A stretch of DNA of 64,000 bases from Tetrahymena elliotti 4EA (taxonomy: Eukaryota; Ciliophora; Oligohymenophorea; Hymenostomatida; Tetrahymenidae). Under the pieces are notes generated by a model, which made no database searches, had not been told where the DNA came from, and saw nothing but the letters and a program-made list of their open reading frames with translations. Made by a program: the position numbers and the translations under genes. This document shows positions 4,167-36,066 of this stretch, in pieces. The stretch covers positions 125,499-189,498 of the forward strand of contig JH720342.1 of assembly GCA_000231825.2 (NCBI GenBank). The letters run 5' to 3'. Each line of letters opens with the position of its first letter. Position 1 is the first letter of the stretch.

Positions 4167-5249
4167 ATGTCTTCTTAAGATAAAGTAAAAAGTGACTATA
4201 AAAACTTAAAATAAGAGGATGACTAAGAATATACATTTGTAAGTCATGCTGATGAAGAGAGAGGTCTTTTGAATTCAGTGAATGAATTAAATATAATTTA
4301 AGCCAATGATATATCAAACTAATCTTCAGTTTGTGATCAATCAATCTAATTAAGTTAATCTAATTTAGATGATGTAGTCTCTTTAAAAGAAGGCATAATA
4401 AAGCCATAAAATGTAGAAAGAAATTAAATTGAAGAGAGTGGGAAATTAGAGCAAAGTAATACTGAATATTTAGAGTAAGTCCTCTACAAATACACTTAAA
4501 AGGTTCTTAATTTATTTAAATGGAATAGAGAGTATTCTAGTATTGGATAGTTTTACTTTTAGATTACTTTTGATGGATTGGCCTTGTATTATTTGAATAA
4601 GTAAATTAAAGAATATAGACAGTAATACAAGCTATCTTTTGTCAGTGAATCTAGTATTAGAGAATGTATAAATAATCTCTCTAAATATCCAGATTCATAT
4701 TTCAATAAAACAAAATAGGATAGTAAAGTAGTTATCAGAGGATAAATAAATGATCCTTTAGCTATAAATCACATAAACAATAAAATACTTGATAATAAAT
4801 ACACTGGAGAATTAACCTAATAGTCTAAGATATTAAACACAAAATTTTAGGTCAATAAAGAAATTAAATGTGTATTTGATAAGAACTTGTAATACTAAAA
4901 TTCATCTAGATTGTCTCATACAGCTAGTAAAATGAACTTGTTGACAAAGATAAATGCTGGTATAGTTTCTTTGTTTACAGGATATGCATTTAAATCTGAA
5001 TTTAAATTTGAATAATTCTAACCCCAATAAGACTTCTACTTCTTTGGCTTTAAATAACTTATGCCTAACAATGTACCTATCTTCAAAATTACTAACATTT
5101 TCAAAGAATTCGATTTATAAAAATTCAGAGTTGAATAAGCAGCTTATGTTTTTTCCATTCTTATTAGCTATGGCCTTGGCATTTTCTTGGCTGCTAAAAT
5201 TGTTAAAAATTTGATCAGCTGGGCAAAAAACAAAAATAACAAGAAGTGA
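4167..5249 (+). CDS. Tail-anchored membrane protein, paralogue 1
   Basis: Single exon of 361 codons (360 residues), open only if TAA/TAG are Gln, with TGA stop at 5247-5249. The start ATG follows an A-rich leader and begins MSSQDKVKSDYKN. The first ~110 residues are charged, Gln/Ser-rich and probably disordered. A folded part starts near a LNLFKWNREYSS motif and an FDGLALYYLNKQ motif. Close to the C-terminus one hydrophobic stretch (AAYVFSILISYGLGIFLAA) is followed by a short basic tail ending NKNNKK, the pattern of a tail-anchored or single-pass protein with the bulk in the cytosol. The neighbour at 6582 is a clear paralogue with the same architecture and orientation. A faint resemblance of the middle part to the domain next to the membrane in MUL1-type proteins is a guess only. 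No enzyme motif was recognised. Confidence 0.85.
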
Positions 5250-8036: not shown

Positions 8037-9944
8037 TCATTTAGAAATTGTAACGGTTGGTTAATTATCAAGAGTTTAAAAAGTTTATGATTAAATAGTT
8101 TGTATTTGTAAATGCTTAGGTATTTCTGTGTAATATTAGGACCAGTTTACTTTAAATTTGTAGAATGTAATTATAAGCAAAGCAAGCACTTCTTACCCAA
8201 AATAGATATAAAAGATATTATTGAATCCAATAATTTTCTTTACATATAAAATTAAGAAAAATTAAAGTAGATTGGCAAGACTAAAGCCATACCAATATAA
8301 TCCATAAAGCTAAGCACCCACTTTAACTCCATTTAACTGAGAAGAAAATACAGGCCAGCTTCCAAATACCACACCAAATACCATATGAATAATAAAAATC
8401 CAAATAGCAAAGAAGACTTAACTTGTATCAGTAAATTAAATAGTGAGTGAAGTTATTATTTATACAACTAAAAACACTTAAAGTATTCTTTTAAAAGGGT
8501 ATTTATCAAGTAAAAGTGACCATAAGGGTCTACAGAAACCATTAGCGATACCTCCTAGATAACCCACCAAAGATTGAAAACTATCACTTTTATATCCAAA
8601 ATCTTTTGCTATTGATTTATAGTTTCCATTAACAAGTAAACCTTATCCTAAGGCTAAAAATCCTAAAAAGATAGACATATAAAGTTAGGGTTGCTTTAAA
8701 CAAACTGAAATAGATGGAGCACCAATTTTATTAAGCTATACTTCTAGTTAAATATTTTTTTTCTTCAACTCATCTAAATTGAGTTCTATTTACTTCTCTT
8801 TTTCCTTTAAGTATTTAACTTATTCTTACACAGACTGCGTTGATACATGTGAAATAAAAGAATTTTTATGTTAGCTTTTATTTTCTAAGTTTTATTGAAA
8901 AACATCTTTAAATTTGTTTTATTCAAGAGGTTAATTTTCGCCGGTTTAATCAATTTTTTCTTATTATTAACTCTTAATTTCTTCATTTACAATCATATAT
9001 TCTCTTTATTTGTCTTAATGGTGGGCCAATTCAATTTTCTACTGAATAACTTCTTCTTCAAGTTAAATGATTTCAATTTTTTTATTCAATATACTTTAAT
9101 CTATTTAAACAGGATCTACTTAATTATTCTACTTGTTCTTTTCATTTGAATTAATTATTCTGCATTCAAATAGAGAGTCTTTATTTGCAATATTTTCTTT
9201 TTATTTTTCCAAGTCCTTTTTTTCATTCTCTTTCATCTAGAGTTCTTTTTTGAGTCTCTTTTCCTCTTCTCCTATCTAATTTGGATGATACAAAATCATT
9301 TAAGATGCTAACAAAGAAACTCCTAAAAATATATATCCAATTGTTCTTAAGGCTTGAGGCACATTTCTTGCTACCTCTATTGAAGGACCTTCAAAATATG
9401 AATAGCCATCTGAATTACTTACTTAAGATAGCCCATCAGGATTTACAAGTTTAAAGAAAAGTAGACCAAAAATGAAGGAATTTAAAGCAAATCCGCCTGT
9501 AGTAACTCCAGCAACCAGCCCCCTATTGTTAGGAAAATGTAAGTAACCCATATAAATAGGTACAAAAAATATAGTCCCCTAAGTAAATCCATGCAAAACG
9601 GCATAAACTATAGCAAATTAGTAAAACCTCTGAGTGTAGCTGGATATGATCACCATAATTGAAGATATTATAGAGCATATAAGCAAATTATATTTAGCTT
9701 AACCAAATAATTTTAATAATTTTATTCCTATAGGTATACCGGTAGCTAAAGAAATCATCATTACTGGATATATTGTCCCTGCAACTCCTAATTCTAAATC
9801 AGAATCTTCTTTTTATCTAAAATATGAAGTAACGTAAACATTTAGCTATCCCCATAAAAAAATAGTGCCATTCATAAGTAATAATAAAAATCCGCCTATT
9901 AGTGTTATGACAGCCCTAGCCTTCTCTCCCAATTTTATATTCAT
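8037..9944 (-). CDS. Major facilitator superfamily transporter, paralogue A
   Basis: Single-exon minus-strand frame of 636 codons (635 residues). The ATG is complementary to 9942-9944 and the TGA to 8037-8039. The N-terminal half begins MNIKLGEKARAVITLIGG and has six predicted membrane segments with the motif NGTIFLWGQLNVYVTSYFRQ and a PIYMGYLHFPNNRG loop. A long hydrophilic loop rich in Gln, Glu and Lys, with coiled-coil character, occupies roughly residues 245-405. It is followed by six more membrane segments, including a GLLVNGNYKSIAKDFGYKSDS segment and LNGVKVGAQLYGLYWYGF. This is the 6+6 layout of MFS carriers and resembles the oxalate/formate antiporter and monocarboxylate branch. The substrate cannot be read from the sequence. 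Three closer relatives lie at 25932, 30565 and 33994, all on the same strand. Paralogue A is the most diverged of the four. Confidence 0.9.
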
Positions 9945-15031: not shown

Positions 15032-17777
15032 ATGGGAAATTCTACATTAAATTCAACTGTATAGGATACCTACAATTAGCAGGGAACAATTTAAGTTTAG
15101 CATGCGTAAGCATCTCTACCTCAATTAGGATAGGATTCTGCTAGCAACTAATAGATATTAGTTTAACATATTAAGAATAGGTTAATGATCAAAGAAACGT
15201 ACAAAAAAAAAGGAATCTAAACTCTAGATAGACAAGAAGAAATTAGTAAATGCTTTTCAACTCTATTCAAATTATATTTTATCAATAATCTTTCAATATA
15301 TTTAAAGATTTAAGTTGCTGTAGCCTAAAATTTGTTAAAATTTTAATTTTTTTAGTCATGATTAATCATCGTCATCATCACATTTAATTGTTATTATTAT
15401 TTAAAAAAAGTTAAAAATTTCAAAGAAATTGAACTTGATCCTAATCAGAGCTCTGTTTATGATACAATTAAGAGCGAACTTTCTGAGAAAGGATATACTG
15501 ATTTTAAATTTTTAGGATAAGGTAGCTAAGGATGGGTATTTTTATCAAAGAATAAAGAAATTAATAGAAGATATGCAATCAAAGGAATTCGCGTCAAAAA
15601 TGCTCAAGGAAAGGTTCATTAAGATACATTTGAATAGGCTCAAAAAGAAATAGAAACACTCAGAAAGTGTAGAGGTTCACCATATGTTATCAATTTAATA
15701 GATCAAATTGATGGAAAAGAATTTATCTACCTCATTCTAAGCGAATGCTAAGGTAAAAAACTACTAATAAAAACACTTGATAATTTTAGTACATATTCAT
15801 AATTATTTTTTATTGAAATCCATTTAAAAGGTACCCTCAGAGAAATCTTAGAAAAAAGCCCAAATAAAAAGCTAAATGAGATCTCGGCTATTAAGTATGC
15901 CAAAGATATTGCTGAAGGTCTCTTTCATATTCATTCCTAAAAATGTATTGCTAATGATCTCAAAATGGATAACATACTTATTGACTACAATGGAAATGCT
16001 GTTGTTGGTATATTTTTACTTTCAAAAAAAATATACAACTTTTCAATTTATTTTCAATCTTTTAACCAACTAAAAGCTGATTTAGGATTAGCAGACAAGC
16101 TCACTAAAACATCAGGATACGGAATGAACCAATATGTAAAATATTATATTTTTTCTTACCATATTTTCATTATTTTTGTTATATATTAAAAAGATGGGAA
16201 ATCTACTCTTCTAAGCTCCAGAATGCTATAACACAACACAGTATAAAGAGTATTTTGAAGAGTATAGTAAACTTGGGTTAAACATTAGCACGAAGCCAAC
16301 AGCTAAAGTGATTAATTAATCAATTTAAAAGAATATCTTATTTTATTTAATATTTAAATAAAAAAGAGTGAATCCTTCTCTTTGGGTAACAGAGTTTTAT
16401 GCCATTAAACCTTTAAATTTGCTCAAATTCAACACTTATAAATATCTAGGCTATCTAATTTATCTTATGGTTCATGATTTCAAAAGCACTTTGATATTCA
16501 ATAAACACTAACCATTAGAATATAGCAATGAATTTTAAAAATTCACTTATAAAAAGTAGCTTTAATACATCATTGATGGGCTAACTCAATTCAAGCCAGA
16601 AGATAGGTTATCGATAAAGGATGTTTTAATTATATTAAAAGGAATTATTTCATTTGAATTTTAACTAGATTAAAAGTTTGTAGAAGTACTGGAAGGCAAA
16701 AAAATTTAGGATTTCATTCGCAGCTTCAAAAGCGATATTGAGTTTGTTTAAAATGAATCAGAAAAATTCTATCCTATTATGTAATTTATGAAACTAAAAG
16801 AACTCATCAAATAAAAGTTTTTAATTATCAAAAGTAATAATGAATAAGAATTATTAGAAGATATCCTTTCTAAAATGAATCAAAGCCAAAAGGAATCAGT
16901 AAGATTTTAACTTAAAGTGAGAATAATAAATATTAGATTACTTTTTACTTTTTAAAATAAATAATTAAAGGATGAAATAATAAAATAGCTCAATTAATAA
17001 AAGAGCAACTTAGAAAGCCTAATTGAAGCAAATTAAAAGAATTTTGTAAATTTATAAAACTTAATTCTAAAAAAACTAATCTCAAAACTAATTAGGAGGA
17101 TATAATTGGAAAATTAAAACAAAATAACAGCATACTCAATTCAGAAATAGAGAATTTAAACTCAAAACTCAAGAACTTAGAGAGTGATTTGAAATCAAAA
17201 GGCTAGGAAATTCAGAAAATAAGATCAGAAAATGAATAATTATTTAATTCAAATTAAAAATTCATTAAATAACAGGAAGTATTCTTTTTTAAATCATCTG
17301 CAAGCTTTTCTTTTTCTATTAAATATTTTATTTAGGGAGAGAAATTAAAGAAGCAAAAGGAAGAAGAGCAAGAGTAGAAAAAGGAAGAAGAGCAAGAGTA
17401 GAAAAAAGAAGAAGAAAAAAAGCAAAAAGAATTGCAGATGATTTAATCAAAGCAGTAATAAAATAAATACATTAATTCAAAATTTGCTATTGAGATAATA
17501 AATAGGATAAAATAAAGTGATTTAGCAAAAAAACTAGAAAATAAAGGAACTTTGATATTTTAAAATAATATTTCAATATTTATTTTATTAAAATAAATAC
17601 TCATGAACTAATCATAAACAAAATAATTCAATAATTGTGAATAAAGAGCATAAAATATTAATTAATTTAAAAAAAAACATTACACAAATAAATAAATACA
17701 CAATGATGTATTCTTTATTATTTTTGGAAAAATAATTCATTTAATATACTCCAAATTTAACTAACTAAATAAATAAA
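15032..17777 (+). CDS. Protein-kinase-like gene with coiled-coil tail, possibly disrupted
   Basis: Kinase motifs in order: glycine loop FLGQGSQGWVFLS (from about 15510), the VAIK lysine as YAIKGI, catalytic loop CIANDLKMDNIL (Asp, Lys and Asn kept, His-Arg replaced by Ala-Asn), DLGLAD in place of DFG, an APE motif (LLFQAPECYN), and a subdomain XI stretch (GLTQFKPEDRLSIKDVL). The start MGNSTLNSTV could be N-myristoylated. Introns that keep the frame: 15753-15830, 16008-16076, 16136-16193, 16899-16970, 17046-17095 and 17279-17335. The C-terminal third is a Lys/Glu/Gln coiled coil. Problems: the join between 15250 and 15430 is unresolved, and near 16385 the frame holding FSLG differs from the frame holding the rest of the C-lobe, so there is an indel or an unseen splice. 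The 3' frame stays open past 17777, into the start of the microexon gene, until TGA at 17873. Confidence 0.65.
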
Positions 17778-20700
17778 ATGAGTAAGATAAAAGAAAATAC
17801 AATTTTTTAAATAAATTTTCTATTTTTTATTTAAAACAAAAAGACATGAAAGAAATATAATTTTACTAAATATGATTATTACAATAATTTTAATCACTCT
17901 TTAATTTAAATGTATTAGATTTTTATAAATTTATGATAATATTTATCTCAATAAAACTTTTAAAAAAAGGAAGTAATCTTACTACTTAATGCTCTTCAAA
18001 TGAAAATATTCAAATTATTTAATTCTAATAAATAAAGAAAGTAGTTTTTGAATTATTTCTGGTTACAAAGACATCATTTAACAATTTTATTCATATTAGA
18101 GGGTTCGCTTTTTTTATTTATTTTACTAATATATTTCATTTATTTTTTGAATCATAGATAGTAAAATATATCTTCACCTCCTCCTATTCCATATTAAATA
18201 CATAATTCTTTATAGTATGTAAACACTTCTCTTCTTTCTATTGGATTCAAATCGATTAAACACACATTGCCTCATTTTATTTTCTATTCTATATTAGCTA
18301 GTCATTTCTTTTATTTTTTATTTTCCATTTATTTATTTCTTTTCATATTAAAAATAGTCTGTAATTAATTAATATTCTTGAAGAATNNNNNNNNNNNNNN
18401 NNNNNNNNNNNNNNNNNNNNNNNNNNNNNNNNNNNNNNNNNNNNNNNNNNNNNNNNNNNNNNNNNNNNNNNNNNNNNNNNNNNNNNNNNNNNNNNNNNNN
18501 NNNNNNNNNNNNNNNNNNNNNNNNNNNNNNNNNNNNNNNNNNNNNNNNNNNNNNNNNNNNNNNNNNNNNNNNNNNNNNNNNNNNNNNNNNNNNNNNNNNN
18601 NNNNNNNNNNNNNNNNNNNNNNNNNNNNNNNNNNNNNNNNNNNNNNNNNNNNNNNNNNNNNNNNNNNNNNNNNNNNNNNNNNNNNNNNNNNNNNNNNNNN
18701 NNNNNNNNNNNNNNNNNNNNNNNNNNNNNNNNNNNNNNNNNNNNNNNNNNNNNNNNNNNNNNNNNNNNNNNNNNNNNNNNNNNNNNNNNNNNNNNNNNNN
18801 NNNNNNNNNNNNNNNNNNNNNNNNNNNNNNNNNNNNNNNNNCATGCTGAATTTATTTATTTCTTTTCATATTAAAAATAGTCGGTAATTAATTAATATTC
18901 TTGAAGAATCTTAGATAGAAAGATATTGACTGGTTTTTGAATAAATTAAAAAATGAAAAATAGCGTGTAAGATATTATAAATAAAAAATAAAAATGTAAA
19001 AGAGATATTTTTTAATAAAAGATTGTAAAATTAGAAAGATTTAATTAAGATTCGATGTTAATTTTTTGAATAAATATTTGAAAAATAGGGAGTAATATTA
19101 GAAGAAAAGGATTGAAAAAAATAATTGAGAATAAAATTTAAATTATTACGAAATAGTGAGTAAGATTTACATTTAAATTATTTAATTTGATGAATAAAGT
19201 TACAATTTTAGTTTGTTTTGAGCAAAATAAATAATTAATTTTTATTTACTGATTGTTTTATTGAGTTAAACAGGAAATTTTATTTAAATTTATTCTGAAA
19301 TATTAAACTAAAATTAGGCAGTAAAAGATTAAATTATAATTCCTAAATATGATTTAGTCAAAAATACATTATTAAAAATAGAAAGTAATTCTGAATTGTT
19401 TCAATCTAATTTACATTTAAATTTAAATTTAAAATTGAATGCAGGTAGTAATATTTTAAATTATGATTATGGCTGATATTATTATGAATAAACTTGATAT
19501 TTTCAATAGTGAGTACTATTTTAATAAATTTAAACTGAAGGGAGATATTTAATATTAAAACTATTAATTAGTATGTAAATAATTTGATGATTCCTGATAC
19601 ATCAGTAATTACAAAAATTAAAAATTGTTAATAGTGGGTAAGTTATTTATGAATTCATTAACTAATTCTTTTATTATAAAAATAATATGAGTACTTTAAT
19701 ATTAACTTAATTAAATTAACTATTTTAAATAGATGGTAATTATAAGATACGTATGAAGATTCATTTAAAATTACGGTATATTCTAATGAAAATAGGATGT
19801 AATTAATAATTTAAATACGATTAAACTAGTAATGATATAAATTTTTAAAATAGTAAGTAATATTTTTTGTATTTTTAGAGATTATTTGAATTCAATTAAA
19901 AATGAAATAGTTTGTAATACTTTAGTATTTTTAGGTATATTCATCAACAATAAATTAATTTAATTTTAAAACAGAGAGTAAATTTTTAGGCAATTAATCA
20001 AGAGTTTAGCTAAATTAATTAATGAACTTTTATTTTCTAATTAATAGCGATTTCAAGTAAATTCATCAAAAAAATAAAAAAACCATATAATTTTGTTTTA
20101 ATTTATATAGAAGCAAGTAAAAGAGCTTAAATATAATTAACTGACACACATACTAACTGACTGACTCTTACAAACATTCTAAATTAATTTTCTAATCAAA
20201 AGTTTGTAAATTTAATTAAATTTTATTTTAAAATTGAAAAATAATAAATTTTTATTATTTTAATAAACAAATAGTGAGTATTTTTTTTTCAATCTTGATA
20301 AGAAGATTCTCAATATGAATAAACAAATAAACTTTAAAAATAAATAGGTAGTATATCAATTTATTTATTTATTATTCACTTATTTCTTGATTAACATACA
20401 TTTTTAATTATTTTGTGACATATTTTCCAATAAAAAACATACAAATAACTTTGTATTTAAATTAGCATGTAAAATAATGAATGATGAAAGCAAAAATACA
20501 ATAAATAGTAAAATGAATTATGAAAACAGGAAGTAACAATTATTAAATTATTTATCTACTTTGTAGAGAATTAATTCTAATTTTAATTCACTCACTATTT
20601 ATTTAATTTAACTCAAAAAGATTGTAAAATTTGAATCCAAAAAACAAACTGAAGAAAATAACATTAAAAATCAAAATAGAAAGTAACTTTCATTTAATTT

Positions 20701-23700
20701 ATTTTATATTAACATAAAAATATTCTTTTTTCAAGGTAACTTTTAACAATTTGATCAGATGATTGATGAGAATTTATTGCGTTAAAATAATTTTAATATT
20801 TATTCATAATATTAGGAAGTACTACCTAAATATTAAAATAGCTTGAATCATTTCATTATTAAAATAGCTAGTAAAACTTTAAAATAATTAAATTAGTGTT
20901 TTAATTGAAAATATTTAAAATGCTTTCTTTTTAATAAATACCAATTATTTTTATAAATATAATTATATCTTAGTAAGTAATAATATATGTAGAAATACGG
21001 GAACGAGCTCAAAATCCCAAATCCTAAATTACCCTCAACATTTTCTCGACAACGAGAAAATGTTGAGGGTAATTTAGGATTTGGGATTTTGAGCTCGTTC
21101 CCGTATTTCTACATATATGTAATATTAATTAAATCTGATGAGAAGATATTGAATTAAACTAATTTCAATCTTTACTAATCACATTATCAGGTATACTTAA
21201 ATGATAATGGAGTTTGAATTAATTTATTATTAAAATAGGTAACTTTAGATAAGTTAAACTTGATTTACAAAGTTGAATTAAATAAATATTATAGGTAATT
21301 CATTATTCTTTTTACATTTAACTTTCATAAAATGATGACGTTAAATAAATAGGTAACAAACAAATAAACATCTAAACATCATGATTTTAAACCAATCATT
21401 TTTTAAAGTGGCAAAGAGTAATTTAAAAACAAATTTGAAAGTAAATAAAAACAAATTGTTATGTTTTAATTAGGATGTAAATAAATTTTGTATGACCACA
21501 GCTTAACATCAATATTTTAAACATAAATTATTCATCAGAGGGTAAATTTATACTTTATTTAAAATTAAATATTAATGTTATCTTTTACTAATTAATCAAA
21601 TTATATAATTAGAACGTAAAATATTCACTTATCATAATAAATTATTATTGAATTGATAAATAAATAAACAAATTAAAATAGAGTGTAATAATTTTTAAGA
21701 ATTAAATCTTTAACTAAAATTTCCTAAATATTAAAAAGTAGGACGTAATGTTTTAGAATAATTTGATATTAAATAAATTGGTGGTTGAAATAAGTGTAAA
21801 ATCTCTTAAATTTACAAATAAACAGATAGTAAATTTTCTTAATAATTATCCTATTATGAAATATTCGTTCTATTTTTAATTAATATAAAGGATGTAAATT
21901 TAGAAAGATATTCTTCATGAAACAATTCATTATTAATACTGATTCTCAATTTCCAAATTAGACTGTATTATTATTATTATTAGCCTTTTCAAAATTGAAA
22001 TTAATAATATTAACTTTAAAACAGTAAGTAAACAATCTATAGAATAAACAATTAATTAACTATTTAGTTTGTTTATTATCTTTGGTTTCTTTTGATAGCT
22101 ATCAAAGGATTTATTGACTAATTAATTAATTAATTAATTAATTAATTAATTAATTAATTAATTGCTAACTAGTCAAAAACTAAATTAAACATTTTTACAT
22201 CTAAAACAGGAAGTAAAAAATTAAATATTCCTTAAAAAGTTTATCTTAATTTATTTTTCTTTATTTTATGTTTAAATAGCGAGTAAATTTACTTTTCTAA
22301 AGGATTTTTATCTCTTAAATGGTCAGATATCTAGTTAAATAACTTTATTTATTCAACACAGAATGTAAGATTATTCTTTTAATAGTTTTATTATAAAAAA
22401 TAATCAATTCATTTTAATTTCTTAAAAGTCCGTAACACTTAAAATTTATTATTTGAGGTTGAATACTGATTATTCATTCATCTATTCTTTTTCAAAACCG
22501 GAAAATAGCAAGTAAAATTTAGAATTATTTAAAATTTAAAGAAATGTAACTTTTAATAAAATAATAATCAAATAAAAATAGATACAAGTAATATTTTGAG
22601 ATTCATTTAAAGATAAAGACAAATAAATAACTAAAATATTCTGGATAGCTATTAGTAATATTTTTTAATTAAAATCTTTTATTTGGAAAGATAACTAATT
22701 CAATATCCAAATTAAAATAGGAACATAAAGTAATATTTGAAAGTGATTTAGAATGAAGATATTAAATAGCTTTAAAAATAAAAAAAGAGAGTAAAATTAT
22801 AAAATGAAAAAAATAAATAAATTTCTATTTTGATATTTAAATAGCAATTTGTAATTCAATTTAGAAATCTGATTTAATAGAAAATGATAAATTAACTATC
22901 GAAATTAAATAGCTTGAAGTAATTTATTAAATAAATTGATTTTGGAAGAAATTAGAACAAAAGAGCATTATTTTAAAATAGATCGTAAAATAAAAAAAAT
23001 ATTTTAGATTAAAAATGAAAAGTTGATTTGATATTTAAAATAGATTGACGTAGTATCTAAAAATGACTACATTTATTCTTTACTACAACCAATTCTTTAA
23101 TATTGTATAGCCTGTAAATTTTTAAATTCATCTTAATTTATGAAAAATGAATAATTATTATTGAAAAAAATTAGGAAGTAAAATAAAGATTAAGATATTA
23201 ACTTGAAAGCAATAAAAATTGATAATCATTCAAATTAAAAAGTTGGTAAATCTTTTGAAATGTTTTAGTCAGCCAACCAATCAAAAATTATAAAATTTTA
23301 TTTATTATTATTAAATATTCCTAACAGCGAGTAAATTAATTTATATTTTTACTTTGAAAATAAATAAATATTAAATAAACTTAAAATAGATAGTAAAATA
23401 TACCTTAGAATTATCCTCTAGAGAGACTTTATCTTAAAATAAACACTTAATAAAACCAACAGCGAGTATTTATTTATTTTGCTAATTTAATTGTGCATTT
23501 TATTTATTTATTTATTTTTACTTTAAATTAACAGGCTGTAATATTCTTAATTTAGAGTAGGAATTAAATCAAAAAACAAAAAATAAAAAAATCAAATAGT
23601 TTGTAAATTCTTTTAAATCAAAGAAAAGATATTTATTTAATAATTAAATTAGCTGGTAAGATTTTACTTTGCTTTTATCAACGAAACTTATTAAAATTTA

Positions 23701-24048
23701 AAAATTAAAAAGAAGGTAATATTTTATTAGAATAAATTGGAAGTATTTATTTTCAAGGTTGATATGAATTTCTTATTTGAATAAGATTTCGAGTAAAAAA
23801 TAAATGAGATTCAATTATTTTCAGCAAACAATTATTTTATTTTCTATTAAACAGCAAGTAAAATAATTTGAATTCATTCATTATCATATTTTTAAATAAA
23901 AACATTATTAGTTTTGAGAGACACTTGCCACAATTTGGCAGAAATATATCTCCATGTTTTTCAAGAGCTAAAAAATAAAAGATATGTGAAATCAAACCAC
24001 AAAAAGATAGAGACACAAAACAACTTTAGTCATGATAATATTAAATGA
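17778..24048 (+). CDS. Microexon gene: about 70 exons, mostly 3 nt, encoding ~136 residues
   Basis: A first exon ATGA (17778-17781, A-rich start context, donor GTAAGA) is followed by a chain of sites of the form acceptor-(3, 6 or 9 nt)-donor every ~65 bp, one 25-nt exon (21078-21102), one 7-nt exon (23786-23792) and a normal last exon (23912-24048, TGA 24046-24048). Joined in order, the exons give one open frame of ~136 codons. Segments read LVLDEQKYDIGWINLDDF (first half), LEIIDPELRIRAFLK (second half) and LRDTCHNLAEIYLHVF (last exon). The composition is protein-like, with a probable helical C-terminal part and a basic, polar tail. TAA is used as Gln in the microexons. No signal peptide and no family recognised. 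Exon 4 must be 1 nt (18102) for the frame to run from this ATG; as 3 nt it runs instead from the upstream kinase frame. An N gap with duplicated flanks lies in the fifth kilobase-scale intron region (18387-18841). Splicing is inferred, not proven. Confidence 0.82.
17970..20976 (+). other. First microexon run (codon-straddling phase)
   Basis: Exon ends and sequences: 17972 GAA, 18040 AAA, 18102 AGG or G, 18160 ATA, 18218 TAT, 18300 CTA, 18360 TCT (repeated at 18883 as TCG), 18966 CGT, 19024 ATT, 19091 GGA, 19159 TGA, 19320 GCA, 19384 AAA, 19447 GTA, 19512 TGA, 19574 TAT, 19637 TGG, 19735 ATG, 19798 GAT, 19856 TAA, 19913 TTT, 19977 AGA, 20056 CGATTTCAA, 20116 AAGCAA, 20205 TTT, 20277 TGA, 20350 GTA, 20468 CAT, 20532 GAA, 20633 ATT, 20682 AAA, 20818 GAA, 20870 CTA, 20976 TAA. 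The first base of each exon completes a codon and the last two begin the next, so the TGA triplets are not read as stops. Nearly all donors are GTAAnn or GTAnnn; exceptions are GTTCGC (18103) and GTCATT (18301). Confidence 0.8.
18331..18910. repeat. N gap (18387-18841) flanked by a direct duplicate
   Basis: About 56 bases before the gap (18331-18386) recur almost identically after it (about 18851-18910). Both contain AAAAATAGTC, the TCT/TCG microexon and its GTAATTAATT donor region; they differ at the third exon base (T versus G). The simplest reading is that the contigs overlap or represent two alleles, so the true gene has one copy of this exon and no gap. An extra real exon cannot be excluded. 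Confidence 0.8.
20983..21118. repeat. Perfect 66-bp inverted repeat, 4-nt loop
   Basis: Left arm 20983-21048, loop ACAA 21049-21052, right arm 21053-21118. The arms are exact reverse complements over 66 bp and richer in G+C than their surroundings. The right arm contains the 25-nt exon 21078-21102 of the microexon gene, between TTTAG and GTATTT, read as KIWDFELVP after the previous exon's leftover bases. The left arm carries its exact antisense. The perfection means it is either very recent, maintained by gene conversion, or a fold-back assembly artefact. Confidence 0.95.
21078..21102 (+). other. 25-nt exon that changes the phase of the microexon run
   Basis: Flanked by a canonical TTTAG acceptor and a GTATTT donor. 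Its length (25, remainder 1 on division by 3) converts the leftover of two bases carried through the first run into phase zero for the second run. Read in frame it gives Lys-Ile-Trp-Asp-Phe-Glu-Leu-Val-Pro. A rival exon using GAG (21093) and the donor at 21119 is also 25 nt but has a poorer acceptor. Confidence 0.6.
21409..23857 (+). other. Second microexon run (one exon = one codon)
   Basis: Exon ends: 21417 TGGCAAAGA, 21476 GAT, 21541 AGG, 21615 AAC, 21684 AGT, 21744 GAC, 21828 ATA, 21893 GAT, 21964 ACT, 22027 TAA, 22212 GAA, 22282 CGA, 22364 AAT, 22431 TCC, 22511 CAA, 22587 ATACAA, 22654 CTATTA, 22729 GAACATAAA, 22790 AGA (or 21 nt from 22770), 22850 CAATTT, 22918 CTTGAA, 22984 ATC, 23049 ATTGAC, 23113 CCT, 23177 GAA, 23245 TTG, 23330 CGA, 23392 ATA, 23465 CGA, 23537 GCT, 23602 TTT, 23655 CTG, 23715 AAG, 23792 ATTTCGA (7 nt), 23857 CAA. 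In phase zero there is no TGA. Shifted by one base the chain hits TGA at TTT/CTG, and shifted by two at AGT/GAC. Intron lengths are mostly 50-80 nt, with one of 182 (22028-22209). Confidence 0.85.
22119..22163. repeat. (TTAA)11 microsatellite inside a microexon-gene intron
   Basis: Uninterrupted tetranucleotide tract of about 45 bases in the longest intron of the second run (22028-22209). It accounts for part of that intron's excess length. Confidence 0.95.
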
Positions 24049-25561
24049 TAAGCATGGAAAAAAAGTTATAATATGTAATATATGTATTTTCTTTATGTTG
24101 CTATATATATTTATGTGTTTTAAACTTTATTTTATACAATTTTTTTTTTTAAACAAAAACACAAATTGTAAAATTTTAATTTATCTGTGATTTTATATTA
24201 GATGGTTTAGTTTTTATTTATAAGTTTAATTAAAGATCATCTCATTTGAAAAGTAAATTTTTAAATAAAATATTAATTGACTAAGAAATATTAAATCATA
24301 TTAAGCAAGAAAAACTTAACTTTAATTTAGAAACTATTAATTATTCAATATTAAAAATGAATAAGATACTTAAATTTTAATAATTTATTTATTTAGTTAT
24401 GTTTTTTTTACAAATTTAAAATGAATTTTAATTTCATTCAAAATAAAGTAAAAGAAAAATTTCTTGTTTTTGGAATTTAGTTAACTTAAAAATAAGTGTT
24501 TATTTGAAATTAAATAGTAATAAAAATTTTCTTGTAATACATATTAAATTAATTAATAAGTTAATTTTTATTATTTTGTGAATTTTTTTTAAATTGCTAT
24601 TAAATAAATAAAAATAAACAAATGAAAAAATGATTCTTGATAATAATTTTATTTTTAAATGTTAATTAAAATTAGTAAGACTTTTTTAATATTGAAGATT
24701 AAGGGATTTATTTTATCAAATAACTAATTTATTTTGTAAGATATTATCCTCAAATTTTAATCCAACAGTGATAAAACTTTATTTCACTATCAAATATCCA
24801 ATATTCCAAAATATCATTTCACAAATTAAAAATAATAATTGGATTTAATTTAAAGTTTTGAGGGAATAATCTAAACTAATATTTTTTTATTGAAAACAAA
24901 TTGAAATCCTTTTGTCATTTAAATTAAAAAAAAATTTCTTTCTTAATCATAATTACCATCAGTTCTCTAAGCAATGGAAAAAAAGAATAATTTTATGAAA
25001 AAAATCACCTTAACTTAGAAATATTTGTTTTTGAAAATTGTTTATTTAAAATAAGATTATTATTATTAAATAATACCAATCGACTTTAATTAAAATTTAT
25101 TTAAATGAATAAATTATTATTTAAAGGTTTTCATTTAGAAAAAAAATCTTTTAAATTTTTTTTGAGTACCACTATAGTAGAATTTAACCTTCTTTCTTTT
25201 ATGATTTTTATTCTTATAATTATATACTTCGAATTTTCTTAAAAAATCAATGAAATAAAAATTTTTCATTAATTTAAACCCTCATAAATATCTATTAAAA
25301 ATTGGATCAAAAACTCTAATTAAGTATGAATGAAAACTAAAAAACCCAAAAATTTTATCACCTTAACTTAGACCTCGCCTTAACTTAGAAAACTGAAGGT
25401 AATTACTTTAATTTTATTTACAAAGAAGTAATAGCAAATTAAGTAGATTATGATAAAAAATTAAAGGAAATAAGAAGATATTTTTAGATTAATTAATAAT
25501 CAATCCTCTCTCTCTTAATAAAATATCTTTTTTATATCAAATTGCATTGCTTTAAGGAAGA
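24049..25561. other. AT-rich intergenic region
   Basis: Downstream of the microexon gene. The microexon rhythm ends abruptly at 23911. No gene seen. The phrase CCTTAACTTAGA recurs three times (about 25007, 25359 and 25379). Confidence 0.6.
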
Positions 25562-25931: not shown

Positions 25932-27935
25932 TCACTGAGTGATGACTTGTAGATTTTAGTTATTTTATTATTGATTGTGAATGTTAATTTGATTGTTATC
26001 ATTTGGTTAAGTATTTAATTAATCTTCTTTCTTTTTCATATAGTACTTAGACCATTCGATTTTGAATTAAAAGGTAAGCATTATAATCAATGCCACAATG
26101 AGTTGTGCGAAATAAATATAGAAGATATTATTAAAGCCGATTGATTTTTTTAATTCCAAGACTATAATAAATTAAATTAAACCTGCTATACTAAATCCAT
26201 ACCAATAGAATCCAAATACTTATGACCCTATTTTAACACCATTTAATTAAGCAGAAAAGACTGGTAACATACCTAACACTCCTCCAAAGCAAAAATGAAC
26301 TATAAAAACCCAAAGAGCGAAAAATGCCTAGCTTTAGTCAGTAGCTTAGAAAGACAAGCATGTTATTATTTAAATGATAATAATTAGTATCAATAAAGTT
26401 TTGAATTTGAATTTATCCAGTAAACCTGCCCAAACAGGTCTAGATATTCCATTAGATATACCAGCTAATGAACCCACTAATGTTTAAAAGCTGTCATCTT
26501 TAAATCCATAATATTTTGCTAATGGTTTAAAGTTTGCATTTACAAGGGAACCATAACCAATACAAAGAATAACTACTAATATAGATAAGTAGAATTTAGG
26601 TTGTTTCAATGCTAATACAATGTTAGGAGCACCTAATTTATTGAGTTCATCTATTTCTTCTTATGTCTTTTTCGCAATAGTTAATTCCACTTTAATTTAT
26701 TCTTCTTTCTTAATTAAATCTTCATTTGTTATTTGGATGACTTTTAAGTTATCAGATACATACTAGTTCTAGTGTTATTTCTTATTTAAACATAGACTAT
26801 CATCTTGCATAAGCTCCAAAATCTTTTAAAAATCTTACTCTACCTTTTCATTTTCTTTCATTTTTTTTAAATCTTCCTTAATTTCATCAACAAAACAATC
26901 TGTGGCAAGCGCTAAACCAATTTATTCATCTTTTTTATGTGATATTTCTATTTTCTCTTGAAGAACTTATTCTTCCATTTATGATATTTTTATTTTCTAT
27001 ATATAAATTTATTCGCTTTATCTCAATTACTCTTATTGACTCTATTCATTCTTTAAAACATTTTAAAACTAGTTTTATTCAGCTTATTAAGATTATTATT
27101 ATTCTTATTCTTATTGTTGTTGCTATTGTTATGTATTTAGTTCATTTCCAATTTATTTGATTTCTTGTTCTATTTTATTTAGATCCTCTTCAAAATGCTT
27201 CTTTTCTTCTTGCTTTTATTCAAGCTATTTTTTTAGCCTTTTTTCTTCTTCTCCAATTTAATTGGGATGGTAGCATATGAGCTAGGTAGCACAAACAGAG
27301 ACACCTAAAAATATGAATCCAATTGTTCTTAGTGCTTCAGGTACGTTTTATGCAACAGAGATGGAATCTCCATCATAATATGAATACCCATCAGAATTTG
27401 GATTCTATTAAAGACCATCAGGATTGACTAGATTTGTGAAAAGCAAACCAAATAAGAATGAGCAAAGAGCAAAACCACAAGTATTAATTCCAGAAACGAT
27501 TCCTCTATTATTAGGAAAATGTAAATATCCCATGTAAATAGGAACAAAATAAATAGAGCCTGCAGCTACTCCATTTATAACTCCATAGATAATTGTAAAT
27601 TAATAGAATTTTTCTGCATAGCTAGATAGAATTACCATTAAGGAAGTAATAATAGTGCTTAACAACAAACTATATCTTGCTTATCCAAATAATTTTATAC
27701 CTTTAATTCCTAAAGGAATTCCTGTAGCTAAAGAAGCTGTCATTACTGGAAAGACTGCACCTCCTATACTTAGAGATAAATCTTGATCACTTTTCTATCT
27801 AAAATAAGATGTTATATAGACATTAAGTGTTCCCCATAAAAATATTGAGCCATTCATAAGCATAAGCAAGAATCCACCTACAAGTGTTAAAATTCCTTTA
27901 ACGTTAATACCTTTTTATTATTTCATTGTTTCCAT
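25932..27935 (-). CDS. Major facilitator superfamily transporter, paralogue B
   Basis: Minus-strand single exon, 668 codons (667 residues). ATG complementary to 27933-27935, TGA to 25932-25934. It begins METMKQQKGINVKGILTLVG. Six membrane segments include NGSIFLWGTLNVYITSYFRQ, SIGGAVFPVMTASLATGIPL and PIYMGYLHFPNNRGIVSGIN. They are followed by a very long hydrophilic loop (about residues 255-470) packed with Gln (largely TAA codons), Glu and Lys. Six further membrane segments include ASLVNANFKPLAKYYGF-like and LNGVKIGSQVFGFYWYGF blocks. The tail after the last membrane segment is Asn/Gln-rich. The N- and C-terminal membrane halves match paralogues C and D closely while the loop does not, so the loop evolves freely. 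Substrate unknown; oxalate/formate or monocarboxylate-type by overall likeness. Confidence 0.92.
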
Positions 27936-30564: not shown

Positions 30565-32556
30565 TCATTCTTATTGTGAATTGGCAATAAAATTCAATTA
30601 ATTTTATTCACTGTTAATTACATTATTTTAGATATTTTCATTCGATTATGTATTTAATGATTCTTCTTTCTTGGTAATGTAATACTTAGACCACTTTATT
30701 TGGAATTAAATACTTATAATCATTACAAGGGCTAATAGTAATTAAGCAAAGAATATGTAAAATATGTTATTGAATCCTATTTACTTTTTTAATTCTAAAA
30801 CTAATAGAAACTAAATTAAATTTGCTATGCTGAATCCATAAAAATAGAAACCATAGAGTTAGGACCCTATTTTCACTCCATTTAATTGAGCAGAAAAGAC
30901 AGGTAACATTCCCAAGACTCCTCCTAAGCAAAAGTGAATGATGAATATCCATATAGCAAAAAAGACCATACTTTAATTTGTTGCTTAAAGTGTTATGCTT
31001 ATAATAGTTTAAACAGAGATGGAAATTAGTAACAAGTATTTGTATTTAAATTTATCTAATAAACCAGACCAGATTGGTCTTGAGACTCCATTTGCTATTC
31101 CTGCTAAGGAACCTACTAAGGTTTGAAAGCTATCACTTTCATATCCTTAATCTTTAGCTATTGATTTGTAATTTGCATTAATTAGTGATCCAAAGCCAAG
31201 ACAAAGAATTGCTAATAAAATAGACAAGTAGAATTTTGGTTACTTTAAGGCGATTTTAATACTAGGAGCACCTAATTTGTCTAAGTCATCTATTTCTTCC
31301 TATTTTTTTTTAGTGATTTGTAATTCTTCTTTAATTTCCTCCTCTTTTTTAGCTAACTCTTGTTAGTAATCCAATTCATTATTTGGTTCAGACTCTTCTT
31401 GAACATATATATTGATATGTTATTTCTTATTATGATTTTATTCTTCATTTTTCATTGAATTTAAAATCTTCAAAAAATCTTTTTCAGAAAATTATTTTTG
31501 TTTTGATAGAGTAACCACTGTTTCTTAATTTTATTTGATCTCATTGATAATAATTTGATTGACATAAACCAATCCAGTTTATTCATCTTTTTTATGTGAT
31601 ATTTCTATCTTTTCTTGTAAAACTTATTGCTCAATTTCTGAGATTCTGATTTTTTAAACAATAATTTACTTACTTTATCTTAATATTTCTTAAGAGAGTT
31701 TGTTTATATTGATTTTTTATAAAATTTATTCATTTTAAAATAATTTTTATTCTTATTCATTATTTATTGTTAATTCAATTTATTTTATTTCTTATTCTAT
31801 TTTATTTAAATTATCTTCAAAATGCTTCTTTTCTTCTTATTTCTCTTGCAACTATTTTTTCAGTCTTTTTTCTTCTTCTCCAATTTAATTGGGATGATAG
31901 AATACAAAAAAAGATCCACAAACTGAAATACTCAAAAAGATGAATCCAATTATTCTTAGCACTTCAGGAACATTTTATGCTACAGATATTGATTCACCAT
32001 CAAAATAAGAATAGCCATCAGAATTTGAATTTTGTAAAAGTCCGTCAGGATTTACTAATTAAGTAAATAATAAGCCAAATAAGAAAGAACAAAGAGCACA
32101 CCCACATGTATTTATTCCAGAAATCAATCCTCTATTGTTAGGATAGAATAGATAACCCATATAAATAGGCACAATACAGATACAGCCAGAGGCTAGACCA
32201 TTAATTACTCCATATATAATAGCAAATTAATAAAATTTATCAGCATAACTTGAGAGAATTACAGCCAAAGAGGAGATAACTGAGCTTAGAAATAAAACAT
32301 ATCGAGCTTAACCAATATATTGAATACCTTTTATTCCTAAAGGAATACCTGTAGCAAATGAAGCTGTCATTACAGGAAATATAGCACCTCCGATACTTAA
32401 AGACAAATCAGGATCACTTTTATATCTAAAATAAGATGTTATGTAGATGTTAAGTGTACCCCATAAAAACATTGAACCACTTGTCAAATTAAGAACAAAA
32501 CCAGCAATCACAGTTAATATCCCTTTGATCTTCATATTAGAATATTCTTCTGTCAT
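30565..32556 (-). CDS. Major facilitator superfamily transporter, paralogue C
   Basis: Minus-strand single exon, 664 codons (663 residues). ATG complementary to 32554-32556, TGA to 30565-30567. It begins MTEEYSNMKIKGILTVIAGF, then NLTSGSMFLWGTLNIYITSY and SIGGAIFPVMTASFATGIPL, as in B and D. The 6+6 membrane layout is interrupted by a hydrophilic Gln/Glu/Lys-rich loop of about 200 residues. In place of the usual 'HFPNNRG' motif, the loop after the fifth segment reads YLFYPNNRG, so the conserved His is changed. The downstream half has the SYGxFGxGxLG-type segment and LNGVKIGS motif typical of this group. It is the middle member of the B-C-D tandem set, which arose by local duplication. Confidence 0.92.
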
Positions 32557-33993
32557 TTATATTCTATGTTTGTTTGTTGGTTTTTTTAGATTTTAAATCA
32601 AACTAACAAAAAGATATTATAAAAATATTTTTTTATTTTATTTATTTTTGAATTTTAATATTTGTTTTAAATAAATTAATTTATATTTTTGTTTTAAATT
32701 CCTTTTTATTTATTACTAAATTTATTGACAAAATTAAATAAAAACTCCATAGATTTTGCTAGTTTGATAGCTAGTATTAAAATGAAAACGTATTGATTTA
32801 ATTGATTGATAGTTATTTTGTTATAATTACATAATTGTTTTTCTTTCAAAAATTTCTTAATTAAAATTGCTTTCTTTCTTATTCATAGAAAGACCTAGAT
32901 TTAATTTCAAAGTAACCAATCATATCAGACTTTTAGGGTTCATTGCTTATGAAATGAATTATATCTTTACAAAATAACATATACTTCATCAAATTTACAT
33001 CAATCAATATTTCTATAGATATTTTAGCAAAAGTAACCAGAGCAATCTATTTTTTTCTTGTCATAATTTTTTCATTTAATTTCTAGCATGATTTTGAGAT
33101 ATTATAAACTCTTTAGAAATTAAAAAAAATGTTGCTTCCTCACTCTTTACCTAGCTTTAAAATTAGGAATAAAATTAAATAATGTTTGCTAAAAATCGAA
33201 AATAAATTCAATTGTAATTAAAAATGGTAGAAAATTAAAAGGAGCTCTGTTTAATAATTAGGCATATTTTTTCACTATTAATTAATTAATTAAATTATTT
33301 CGAAGGCTTGTAAAAATGAATATATCATTTTAAGGTAGATAATCAGTGTATTTATAAGGAAATTTAATATATAATATGATCAAAAAGCAATTTTTTACTT
33401 AAAGTTATGTAAATAATAAAATTTTTTGAAAAGGCTTGTAAAAATAAATAAAGATTTCTTGGTAGAAGTAGACATAATAAACTCAAATTTAATTAAAAAA
33501 GTACAATCTTTAAATAATGTTTCTCTAAATAGAAAGAAATACTAGCTTACCTAAGATTTAATATTCTCTCTTAATTTACATTATCACTTTTTACTAGAAA
33601 AACAATAAAATTGGTAGAATAATTTTTTATTCATATCTAAATCTAACACAATAAAATAAAGTTATTATTAGAAAAGCAAATAGAAAATAGTTTGGCTAAT
33701 AAAACTTAGAGATTCTTAATCTAAAATAGCCAGTCATTAAAAAAAACTTAAAATATTTATTTTCAAGAAGCATTTTAGTGTAAGTTTTTCTTAAAAAGTA
33801 CACTGAATTATTTTTTTTGTTTTTGGTGATTAAAAATACATTCTTTAGGATTTTCAATAGAAATACGAATTCAGAAAAGCATAAAATGTGTGTACTCAAC
33901 AAGTGTAAATATATAATGAATAAATAAAAAGAAATTTTTATAGTTTTTAATATTTAAAGATTAAATAGATTTTGTTTTTCTTTTTTTAAAATA
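32557..33993. other. AT-rich intergenic region
   Basis: Between transporters C and D. Low complexity; no coding frame that survives scrutiny. Two copies of AGGCTTGTAAAAATGAA/AATAAATA (about 33305 and 33433) suggest a small duplication. Confidence 0.5.
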
Positions 33994-36066
33994 TCATTGT
34001 TAAATTTGAATAACAAGATTTTATTCACCAGTAATAGCAGTGTTTGTTTGTAAACTTTCTTTTGATTATGTATTTAATGTGTCTTGTTTTTTTAACAAAT
34101 AGTATTTCGACCATTAAATTTTGAATTAAAAGTAATTGATTATTATTAATGCCAAAACCAGTTATCCTAAACAGATGTAGAATATGTTATTGAAACCTAT
34201 TGAGTTTTTTAACTCTAAGACCAAGATAAATTATATCAAATTAGCAATGCTGAATCCATAAAAATAGAAGCCAAATAACTATGAGCCTATTTTAACGCCA
34301 TTTAATTGGGCAGAGAATGCAGGTAACATTCCCAAGATCCCTCCATAACAAAAGTGAATGACAAAAATCCAAACAGCAAAAAATTCTTAACTGTGATCAG
34401 TAGCTTGGAGAGATAGACATGTTGCAATTTAAAAACAAAGAACTAATATAAGTAAATTTTTATATTTAAATTTGTCTAATAATCCTGCCCATACAGGTCT
34501 AGATAATCCATTAGCTATTCCAGCTAAAGACCCAACCAAAGTTTAAAACTCATCACTTTTATATCCATAATCCTTAGCAATAGATTTATAATTTGCATTA
34601 ACTAGTGATCCAAAGCTCAGACATAGTATTGCCAAAAATATTGACAAATAGAATTTAGGTTATTTTAATGCAGCTAAAATATTTGGAGCCCCTCTTTTAT
34701 CCAATTCATCTATTTCTTCTTATCTCTTTTTAGCCAACTTTAATTCTTCTTTCATTTGTTCTTCTTTTTTTTCTAAATCATCTTCAGTTGGTTCAATCTT
34801 TACTTCACTTTCTTTCACATTTGAATTATTATGCATCTCTTTATTGCCATTCTAGATTTAATTTTGCATCATTTCAAGAATCTTTTAAAAATCTTTTTCA
34901 ACATTTTAATTTTCTTTATCATCATTAGGTTTTGATCCATTTTACTTTAAATGAAAGTGATTTCCTTCTTTATTAGTATGGTTTACTAACCCCATATTAT
35001 TACCTGCTATACCTTGGTTTTATTGATCTTATTTTATTTCTTCATTTATTATGAATTAGTTAGAGAATGAATAGCCTTCTTTTTCATCTTTTTTATGAGA
35101 TATTTCAATCTTTTATTATAAAACTTACTCTTGTATCTCAGATATTCTGATCTTTTATTCGATTATATGTTAATTTTATTTCAATAATACTTATTCATGT
35201 TTTTGTAATATATGTTGAATTTATTATTTCTCATTGTTTTAATCTTAAAATTATTCTTGATTGTTTTGAATATTTAAAGATTGTTCAATTTATTTTATTT
35301 CTTATTCGATTGAGATAAGATTTTCATGAAAAACTTTCTATTCTTTCTGAGCTAATTCAAGTTACTTTTTCAGTCTTTTTTCTTCTTCTCCGATTTAATT
35401 AGGATGATAAAATATAATTAAAGAGGCACAAAGAGAAACACCTAAAAAAATATATCCTAATGTTCTTAGAGCTTCAGGTACATTCTAAGCTACAGAGATT
35501 GAATCACCATCAAAATACGAATAGCCATCAGAATTAGAATTCTGTAGAAGTCCATCAGGATTTACTAATTTTTTGAACAGTAAACCAAACAAAAAGGCAC
35601 AAAAAGAAAATCCACAAGTATTAATTCCAGAAACTAATCCTTTGTTTTGAGGAAAGTGTAAATATCCCATATAAATAGGAATGAAACAAATACAGCCAGA
35701 GGCGATACCACCTAAAATTCCGTAAATAATAGCAAACTAGTAAAATTGATCAGTAAAGCTAGAAAAAATCACCAACAAGGAAGAAATAGTACAACTTATG
35801 AGTAAGATGTATCTAGCCTAACCAAAGAATTTAATACCTTTAATACCTAAAGGTACCCCAGTTGCAAAAGACGCAGTGACAAGAGGGAATATAGCTCCAC
35901 CTATACTTAAAGACAAATCAGGATCACCTTTCTATCTGAAATAAGATGTTATATAGATATTAATAGTTCCCCATAAAAATATTGAGCCATTAGTCAGATT
36001 AAGTAAAAATCCACCAATTATTGTCAAAATTCCTTTTATTTTTTAGCATTTTAATTATTTTTCCAT
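33994..36066 (-). CDS. Major facilitator superfamily transporter, paralogue D
   Basis: Minus-strand single exon, 691 codons (690 residues), the longest of the four. ATG complementary to 36064-36066, TGA to 33994-33996. It begins MEKQLKCQKIKGILTIIGGF and shows NLTNGSIFLWGTINIYITSY. The loop motif is PIYMGYLHFPQNKGLVSG (Gln and Lys where B has Asn and Arg). The central hydrophilic loop is longer than in B and C, with Asn-rich and Gln-rich stretches. The second half carries six membrane segments and ends with a polar tail (TLNTQSKESLQTNTAITGEQ). Function is presumed the same as its neighbours: secondary transport of a small organic anion across a cell membrane. Confidence 0.92.

Follow-up and report, generated by a model that had tools for sequence, protein, structure and literature searches.

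Here, we describe in a 64,000-nucleotide (nt) window of Tetrahymena elliotti 4EA (contig JH720342.1, positions 125,499 to 189,498) an array of about 70 minute units, most of them a single triplet between a splice acceptor and a splice donor motif. The array is a real pattern and does not arise by chance. As judged from its sequence, the triplets are very probably consecutive coding exons and the stretches of ~62 nt between them spliceosomal introns, such that the C-terminal domain of a predicted protein kinase would be written approximately one codon at a time. This architecture, in which exon and codon coincide, probably extends to tens of genes, each with a whole domain present only as single-codon, few-codon and zero-length exons.

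The unit array in the window and in the genome

The ~70 AG-NNN-GTA units lie on the plus strand between 17.9 and 23.9 kb. Counting the distance from [TCA]AG to GTA[AT] over positions 17401-24100 of this strand gives 56 cases of 3 nt, 6 of 6 nt, 6 of 9 nt and 7 of 0 nt, as against 2, 1, 2, 0, 1 and 0 for distances of 1, 2, 4, 5, 7 and 8 nt; neither the minus strand nor the remaining 57 kb of the window has a comparable spacing peak. A Viterbi parse in which the 3-nt units served to train the splice-site weights and exon lengths of 0-40 nt had a uniform prior yields 66 internal exons 3' of an assembly gap, 65 of which measure 0, 3, 6 or 9 nt (51 of 3 nt, 6 of 6 nt, 3 of 9 nt, 5 of 0 nt and a single one of 7 nt), and in a looser parse that admits exons up to 60 nt multiples of three make up 62 of 66. 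The region contains 54 units with a gap of 3, compared with maxima of 9 and 25 in Markov simulations of order 2 and order 4 (n = 300 each). The chain score of the array, 275, likewise exceeds the highest scores of 40 order-3 simulations (132) and of 18 other pieces of the window (29). As a sequence pattern, the original prediction of some 70 consecutive units on one strand, mostly one triplet long and with lengths in multiples of three, is borne out.

In composition the units resemble exons and the intervening segments introns. The guanine-cytosine (GC) content is 30.0% for the microexons versus 28.7% for the ordinary exons of the gene, and 17.2% for the array introns versus 17.1% for its ordinary introns; the median intervening segment of 62 nt is similar to the gene's ordinary introns as well. 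Altogether we count 75 units in the window, 62 of 3 nt and 5 of zero length (AG|GT, four of them in succession at 21190-21353), which amounts to ~75 introns per ~81 codons, plus the part hidden by the gap.

The original prediction dealt with a single gene, whereas the arrays form a genome-wide family. Three patterns of successive triplets, applied to an assembly of 89,954,799 bases in 134 contigs, gave 167+47, 111+34 and 65+16 matches (forward+reverse), compared with 2+0, 5+2 and 2+0 for reversed-pattern controls. Merging the matches gives at least 42 array clusters, among which those with a single match may include chance hits and a merged one, C23:706-717k, covers two kinase genes. From the same genome, 20 stretches of 8-10 kb (labels of the type L031-L050) were read. 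Summed over their plus strands, gaps of 0 to 9 nt occur 78, 51, 53, 579, 35, 40, 110, 47, 37 and 61 times; on the minus strands, which carry the L031 and L032 arrays, a gap of 3 occurs 97 times versus 36-56 for the others. An array of at least 5 exons is present in 17 of the 20 stretches and absent from L036, L037 and L040. Exons of up to 20 nt in the 17 other arrays fall into the modulo-3 length classes 588 : 26 : 17, a count that excludes a minus-strand chain in L047 (6 : 6 : 7) lacking the pattern; with that chain included and exons of up to 60 nt admitted, the classes are 646 : 97 : 83.

The kinase gene upstream

Very likely, the array is the C-terminal part of a protein-kinase gene that starts at 15032 on the plus strand. 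Ten predicted ordinary exons between 15032 and 17454 splice in silico into one open frame that runs from MGNSTL through a kinase domain and a coiled coil to an E/K/Q-rich exon. The junction of this last exon with the array is in phase (CA|G AA|A AA|A GG|A TA), and the resulting peptide QKKGY matches the paralogues L035 (MKKGYL) and L034 (LKQGYL); the microexons GAA-AAA-AGG-ATA (17970-18160) also occur in L035. Across the genome, 17 of the 42 listed clusters have a kinase of this family at most 6 kb upstream on the same strand, versus 0.06 expected, and at clusters C3:1772k and C23:729k an assembly gap occupies the expected kinase position.

Exon 1 (15032..15245, donor gtaaat) provides the start codon and the N terminus MGNSTLNS, which we presume to resemble an N-myristoylation signal, as well as a motif, HIxNRxxIKxxYxxKGIQxLD, that is similar in T. 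thermophila homologues such as P0001-P0005 and in L035/L048. The kinase N-lobe is placed in exon 2 (15411..15752; Pfam PF00069, E 1.1e-23, in the open reading frame (ORF) 15362-16255), the catalytic-loop motif NDLKMDN in exon 3 (15831..16007, from the Pfam match and splice boundaries), DLG instead of DFG in exon 4 (16077..16135, from splice boundaries) and an APE-like APEC in exon 5 (16194..16307, with a GTG donor). Exon 6, of 19 nt (16367..16385), has a similar stretch in L035, and exon 7 (16450..16898), the kinase C-lobe, is 62% identical to an L035 ORF over 112 amino acids. Exons 8 (16971..17045) and 9 (17096..17278) form a putative coiled coil, assigned by eye, and exon 10 (17336..17454; 119 nt, acceptor tatttag, donor gtaataaa) is E/K/Q-rich and ends in phase 2. 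A predicted intron of 515 nt (17455..17969), which may hide missed exons, leads from exon 10 to the first clear microexon. With its kinase domain, N-terminal HIxNR motif and coiled coil, the window gene has the features that define a Tetrahymena 'kinase domain protein' family. A protein database search with the kinase returned 42 matches (26 in T. thermophila SB210, 1 in T. malaccensis, 3 in T. utriculariae, the rest weak and elsewhere), with 61% identity to P0001 of T. thermophila over 71% of the query (E 2.2e-187). Among the closest T. thermophila homologues, P0002-P0004 end directly after the E/K/Q stretch and P0001 ~20 residues later, while others end at varied points beyond the kinase domain; none of the 31 best homologue matches contains a C[EL]Y[EV] or IG[TV]V[ST] motif.

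The original prediction had the array begin as a gene of its own, with a first exon around 17778. We consider such a separate gene beside the kinase gene unlikely. It would account for an ATG followed by GTAAG at 17778 and for the length of the intron to be replaced, 515 nt. Several observations also speak against the link to the kinase: 25 of the 42 listed clusters lack a family kinase within 6 kb, and 20 of 37 listed family kinases have no listed cluster downstream (one of them, C23:713078, only through merging), where kinase places were counted as one row per locus among the matches listed, at an identity of at least 44% and E values down to 6e-12, and rows ~30% identical, probably other kinases, were dropped. 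Moreover, P0002-P0004 bear the label partial and come from short contigs, the ends of which could explain their stops. However, the ATGA at 17778 enters the array in phase 1, with 6 TGA downstream of the gap, while exon 10 enters it in an open phase 2, and in L035 the array begins ~100 nt or less after the coiled-coil stretch. Rather than opening at 17778, the array very likely continues the gene that starts at 15032.

Arrays without a listed family kinase at most 6 kb upstream include L044 and L046 (C18:1231k and 1251k), L041, L033, L038, L039 and L047. The L046 array ends in a CEYEL-type motif all the same, as does that of L044 in the constrained parse described below. Several kinase-less arrays follow other long open frames, which makes fusion of the domain to other partners possible; for ten ORFs (nine before kinase-less arrays, the tenth from the window) no Pfam match exceeded the cut-off. 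At C4:1082306-1083292 and C32:536349-537341 (listed at C4:1082168 and C32:536208) the kinase domain is open and intronless, with 57% and 55% identity, respectively, to part of T. thermophila P0001; these copies are possible retrocopies and might include the domain in spliced form. Elsewhere in the window, four minus-strand ORFs (8037-9944, 25932-27935, 30565-32919 and 33994-36066) match the major facilitator superfamily (MFS_1).

The joined domain and its rate of change

What would the triplets encode? We joined the short exons of the frame-free parse of 18 arrays, leaving out units that exceeded 12 nt or had a length not divisible by three, and used the ciliate code for translation. In frame 1, the preceding codon is finished by the first base of each exon, that is, all introns are in phase 2. 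This frame contains 8 TGA in 771 codons, compared with 24 in 789 and 32 in 771 for the other frames, and a C[EL]Y/CEL motif appears in frame 1 in 8 of the 18 arrays and in the other frames in none. Among 11 arrays with at least 25 units (55 pairs), the similarity of the frame-1 peptides beyond that of shuffled exon orders has a mean z of 1.69, with means of 0.41 and 0.27 in the other frames; five pairs exceed a z of 5 in frame 1 (top 13.5), and two and one do so in the others. A parser that requires multiples of three and no TGA gives one alignable domain among the paralogues, ending in (N)CEYEL(F), which for L035 reads MKKGYLKINSNSNYAYGFYDENKNRIGVIKKQDVTKDLQNMMIEDLNNDKYIGTVSLMQGK..NCLYVIF and for the window ..KKGYIY, then the assembly gap, then RVLDDLQKYDIGWINLDDF..GKEIGTVTQIL..LTLNCEYELFC. 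The domain would flow into a predicted ordinary last exon (23912..24035, ..NFERHLPQFGRNISPCFSRAKKQKICEIKPQKDRDTKQLQS). The joining of the triplets in one frame that enters such an exon was part of the original prediction and stands; the phase is 2, however, and the stop is the TGA at 24033-24035 instead of 24048, the frame that stops at 24048 being less favoured by codon usage in the last exon (-0.210 vs -0.120 per codon).

Several results weigh against a coding role of the triplets. Frame 1 is not free of TGA, as counted above, and is fully open in only 10 of 18 arrays, compared with 8 for frame 0 and 4 for frame 2, and close pairs give scores in the other frames too. Within the window, 34% of shuffled exon orders are likewise free of TGA in frame 1 and codon usage lends this frame weak support (p 0.15), which means that the window alone does not settle the frame; its open frame 1 also requires two judgement calls at 23713-23792. 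The aligned peptides stem from a parser that forbade TGA and lengths other than multiples of three, and since these properties were imposed, the alignment supports the frame and is no independent proof. The joined domain matches nothing known in Pfam, among PDB sequences or in the protein database: no Pfam family exceeds the cut-off (a weak match to Bflower_2, E 9e-4, with 19.5 bits against a cut-off of 38, concerns 1 of 9 members), the best PDB profile match has an E of 0.03, and two protein database searches, with candidates of domain length and of full length, did not find the domain. No contiguous copy was found in its own genome with a hand-made consensus, an artificial query that makes the empty answer a weak one, and a DNA pattern for CEYELFC had 0 matches in 90 Mb.

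The rate at which the triplets change also weighs on this side. The tandem paralogues L034 and L035 have 74 of their 76 parsed units each in common, and in units of equal length their triplets differ at 55 of 234 sites (23.5%) versus 751 of 4564 (16.5%) for the introns (p 0.007); in a stricter set of 34 triplets, 22 of 102 sites differ (p 0.18). The ratio of nonsynonymous to synonymous change (dN/dS) for the L034/L035 triplets is 0.64, no strong signature of purifying selection. L049 and L050 differ at 30 of 90 triplet sites, and without two repeat-block pairs at 24 of 84 (28.6%) versus 649 of 3656 (17.8%) for the introns (p 0.014). The pace of change in the domain thus equals or exceeds that of its introns, and as cause of the triplet change diversifying selection and composition may fit the two pairs alike.

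A block in L049 (~3328-4428) may record how intron-codon units multiply. In 16 of its 17 successive introns that were compared, the introns are copies of one another, with a mean identity of 0.72 versus 0.57 when shuffled, and the 16 triplets between them are no more alike than random (0.24 versus 0.25). L050 has three introns of the L049 type adjoining an assembly gap, and at one site a zero-length unit in L035 stands where L034 has a single intron. Neither the window nor most of the ten arrays tested show intron-to-intron likeness above shuffled sequence. We suggest that the arrays grew by tandem duplication of an intron-plus-codon unit followed by fast codon change, which would give units of uniform phase and length.

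Could the triplets instead be stepping stones, left in one very long 3' intron or a decaying C-terminal region that is removed stepwise by the short-intron spliceosome? Their amino acids would then be irrelevant, even though the triplets stay multiples of three and stop-free. The grading of zero-length units into 3-nt units would fit such a process, as would the pace of triplet change in close paralogues and the mutually unrelated triplets of the L049 block. It leaves aside the ordered peptide with its C[EL]Y-type motif, common to paralogues and confined to one frame, and the exon-like GC content of the triplets, and we regard it as very unlikely. A noncoding, degenerate tandem repeat built around a conserved AATAGNNNGTAA motif, for instance a protein-binding or small-RNA array, would explain why the introns of the L049 block are mutual copies; it is most improbable in view of units of 0, 6 and 9 nt as well, their exon-like composition, the frame-specific conservation of the peptide, the in-phase junction with the kinase and window introns no more alike than shuffled ones. 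Ciliates excise DNA segments during macronuclear development, but there is next to no chance that the intervening segments are internal eliminated sequences, cut from DNA and not RNA, and we rejected this: they have GT...AG borders and the composition and length (median 62 nt) of the gene's ordinary introns, and they are present in an assembly that looks macronuclear, with CCCCAA telomere repeats at contig ends including that of C3 (bearing L034 and L035), so that their removal would occur at the RNA level.

With the triplets read as coding exons, the predicted microexons are arranged on the plus strand as follows. Before the gap, over 17970..18360, lie the 3-nt exons 17970 GAA, 18038 AAA, 18100 AGG (GTT donor), 18158 ATA, 18216 TAT, 18298 CTA (GTC donor) and 18358 TCT, translating as ..(Q)KKGYIY... 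The assembly gap of 455 N (18387..18841) hides part of the domain. Both of its flanks carry a common 33-nt exact repeat that extends into a triplet unit (TCT / TCG); the gap size is unsure and this unit is possibly doubled. From 18881 to 20056 the array continues with 18881 TCG, 18964 CGT, 19022 ATT, 19089 GGA, 19157 TGA, 19212 TTT (GTT donor, uncertain), 19318 GCA, 19382 AAA, 19445 GTA, 19510 TGA, 19572 TAT, 19635 TGG, 19733 ATG, 19796 GAT, 19854 TAA, 19911 TTT, 19975 AGA and 20048-20056 CGATTTCAA, and from 20111 to 20976 with 20114 CAA (or 20111-20116 AAGCAA), 20203 TTT, 20275 TGA, 20348 GTA, 20466 CAT, 20530 GAA, 20621 ATT, 20680 AAA, 20816 GAA, 20868 CTA and 20974 TAA. The next predicted intron (20977-21190) contains a perfect 66-bp inverted repeat with a 4-nt loop (20983-21118), GC-richer than its surroundings and either a tolerated intron insertion or an assembly artefact.

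Four zero-length, ratchet-like units follow at 21190/21191, 21238/21239, 21294/21295 and 21352/21353, spaced 48-58 nt apart. Over 21409..22212 lie 21409-21417 TGGCAAAGA, 21474 GAT, 21539 AGG, 21613 AAC, 21682 AGT, 21742 GAC, 21826 ATA, 21891 GAT, 21962 ACT, 22025 TAA, 22068 TTT (GTT donor, uncertain) and 22210 GAA, with a (TTAA)n-type microsatellite at ~22118-22163 inside a predicted intron. The stretch 22280..23049 comprises 22280 CGA, 22362 AAT, 22429 TCC, 22509 CAA, 22582-22587 ATACAA, 22649-22654 CTATTA, 22721-22729 GAACATAAA, 22788 AGA, 22845-22850 CAATTT, 22913-22918 CTTGAA, 22982 ATC and 23044-23049 ATTGAC. The final stretch, 23111..23857, translates as ..LTLNCEYELFC.. and is the least certain part of the array: 23111 CCT, 23175 GAA, 23243 TTG, 23328 CGA, 23390 ATA, 23463 CGA, 23535 GCT, 23600 TTT, 23653 CTG, a zero-length unit at 23715/23716 and 23855 CAA. 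Here two candidates were set aside as judgement calls, namely AAG at 23713-23715, which we read as the zero-length unit, and a 7-nt unit at 23786-23792, which breaks the conserved frame. Apart from the gap, uncertainty is concentrated in the 515-nt intron before the array, in the junctions 23713-23855 and in the less certain units with GTT or GTC donors (18100, 18298, 19212 and 22068).

A splicing model and known systems

How could such an array be spliced? Short introns are generally recognised by intron definition, and each ~62-nt intron would presumably be recognised individually in this way. Because two spliceosomes can scarcely fit on an exon of 0-9 nt, neighbouring introns would be removed in turn. 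With every ligation the 5' splice site for the following step, NNN|GTAA, would be restored, and zero-length units would serve as recursive (ratchet) points. As the introns are in phase 2, a skipped unit would cost a single residue and leave the frame intact, and slips of the spliceosome might each delete one residue in frame and turn one gene into a cloud of domain variants. The domain could serve a membrane-anchored kinase as a sensor or adaptor that evolves fast.

Were the array spliced in this way, one-codon exons would stand in a row by the dozen, well beyond known tiny exons, and the spliceosome would require almost no exon. Since T. thermophila has homologous kinase genes, questions of order, fidelity and exon junctions would be directly testable in a model genus. 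Gene prediction would also have missed a domain of a large kinase family: the closest T. thermophila proteins are annotated up to roughly the expected start of the array, and two protein database searches did not return the domain; coding by microexons may be why those searches did not find it. The papers listed in our literature search include no report of runs of 3-nt exons, nor of microexon arrays in Tetrahymena, although published work elsewhere is possible, and the accounts of the closest known systems used here describe no runs of one-codon or zero-length exons.

Introners are near-identical introns scattered over unrelated genes; homologous introns were seen here within one array (L049). 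Known ratchet points subdivide long introns, in contrast to the steps of ~60 nt in the T. elliotti array, most of which would add a codon. The likeness to recursive splicing, as far as the part of the source drawn on here describes it (PMC5126111), is that the five zero-length AG|GT units have a sequence form that would rebuild a 5' splice site and that introns would be removed stepwise.

That a spliceosome is able to join exons of 1-3 nt is indicated by a single-nucleotide exon in Arabidopsis APC11 (PMC4674806) and by two 3-nt exons in duplicated fungal lipS genes (PMC5639578); in the portions of these papers used here such exons are single or paired, not dozens in a row. Closer in layout are the micro-exon genes (MEGs) of schistosomes, which, according to the sections of the source considered (PMC5825161), consist, over the greater part of their coding sequence, of short symmetric exons (6-36 bp) and vary their proteins by alternative splicing. 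The T. elliotti gene would likewise place coding sequence in an array of short symmetric exons. It differs in that ~80% of the coding sequence of a MEG is in symmetric exons of 6-36 bp, while the units here are mostly 3 or 0 nt and the kinase and coiled coil lie in ordinary exons; as a predicted kinase gene of a ciliate, it would work like a MEG without being a member.

The nearest parallel comes from the same genus. Leucine-rich repeat (LRR) genes of Tetrahymena contain arrays of exons of exactly 90 bp with >96% to >98% phase-2 introns, against a background intron length peak of ~56 bp, and these families evolve fast, their shuffling being put down to ectopic recombination and perhaps retrotransposition as well (Xiong et al. 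2019, PMC6564038; in the extracts used here). Both systems consist of tandem exons of equal length with phase-2 introns, those of our array being predicted, with a median intron of 62 nt versus ~56 bp. In the same extracts, the LRR arrays have a unit of 90 bp versus 3 bp here, where each codon is different, zero-length units occur and the genes are predicted kinases and not LRR genes. The 3-bp arrays give the impression that the habit seen in the 90-bp LRR arrays has been taken down to a single codon.

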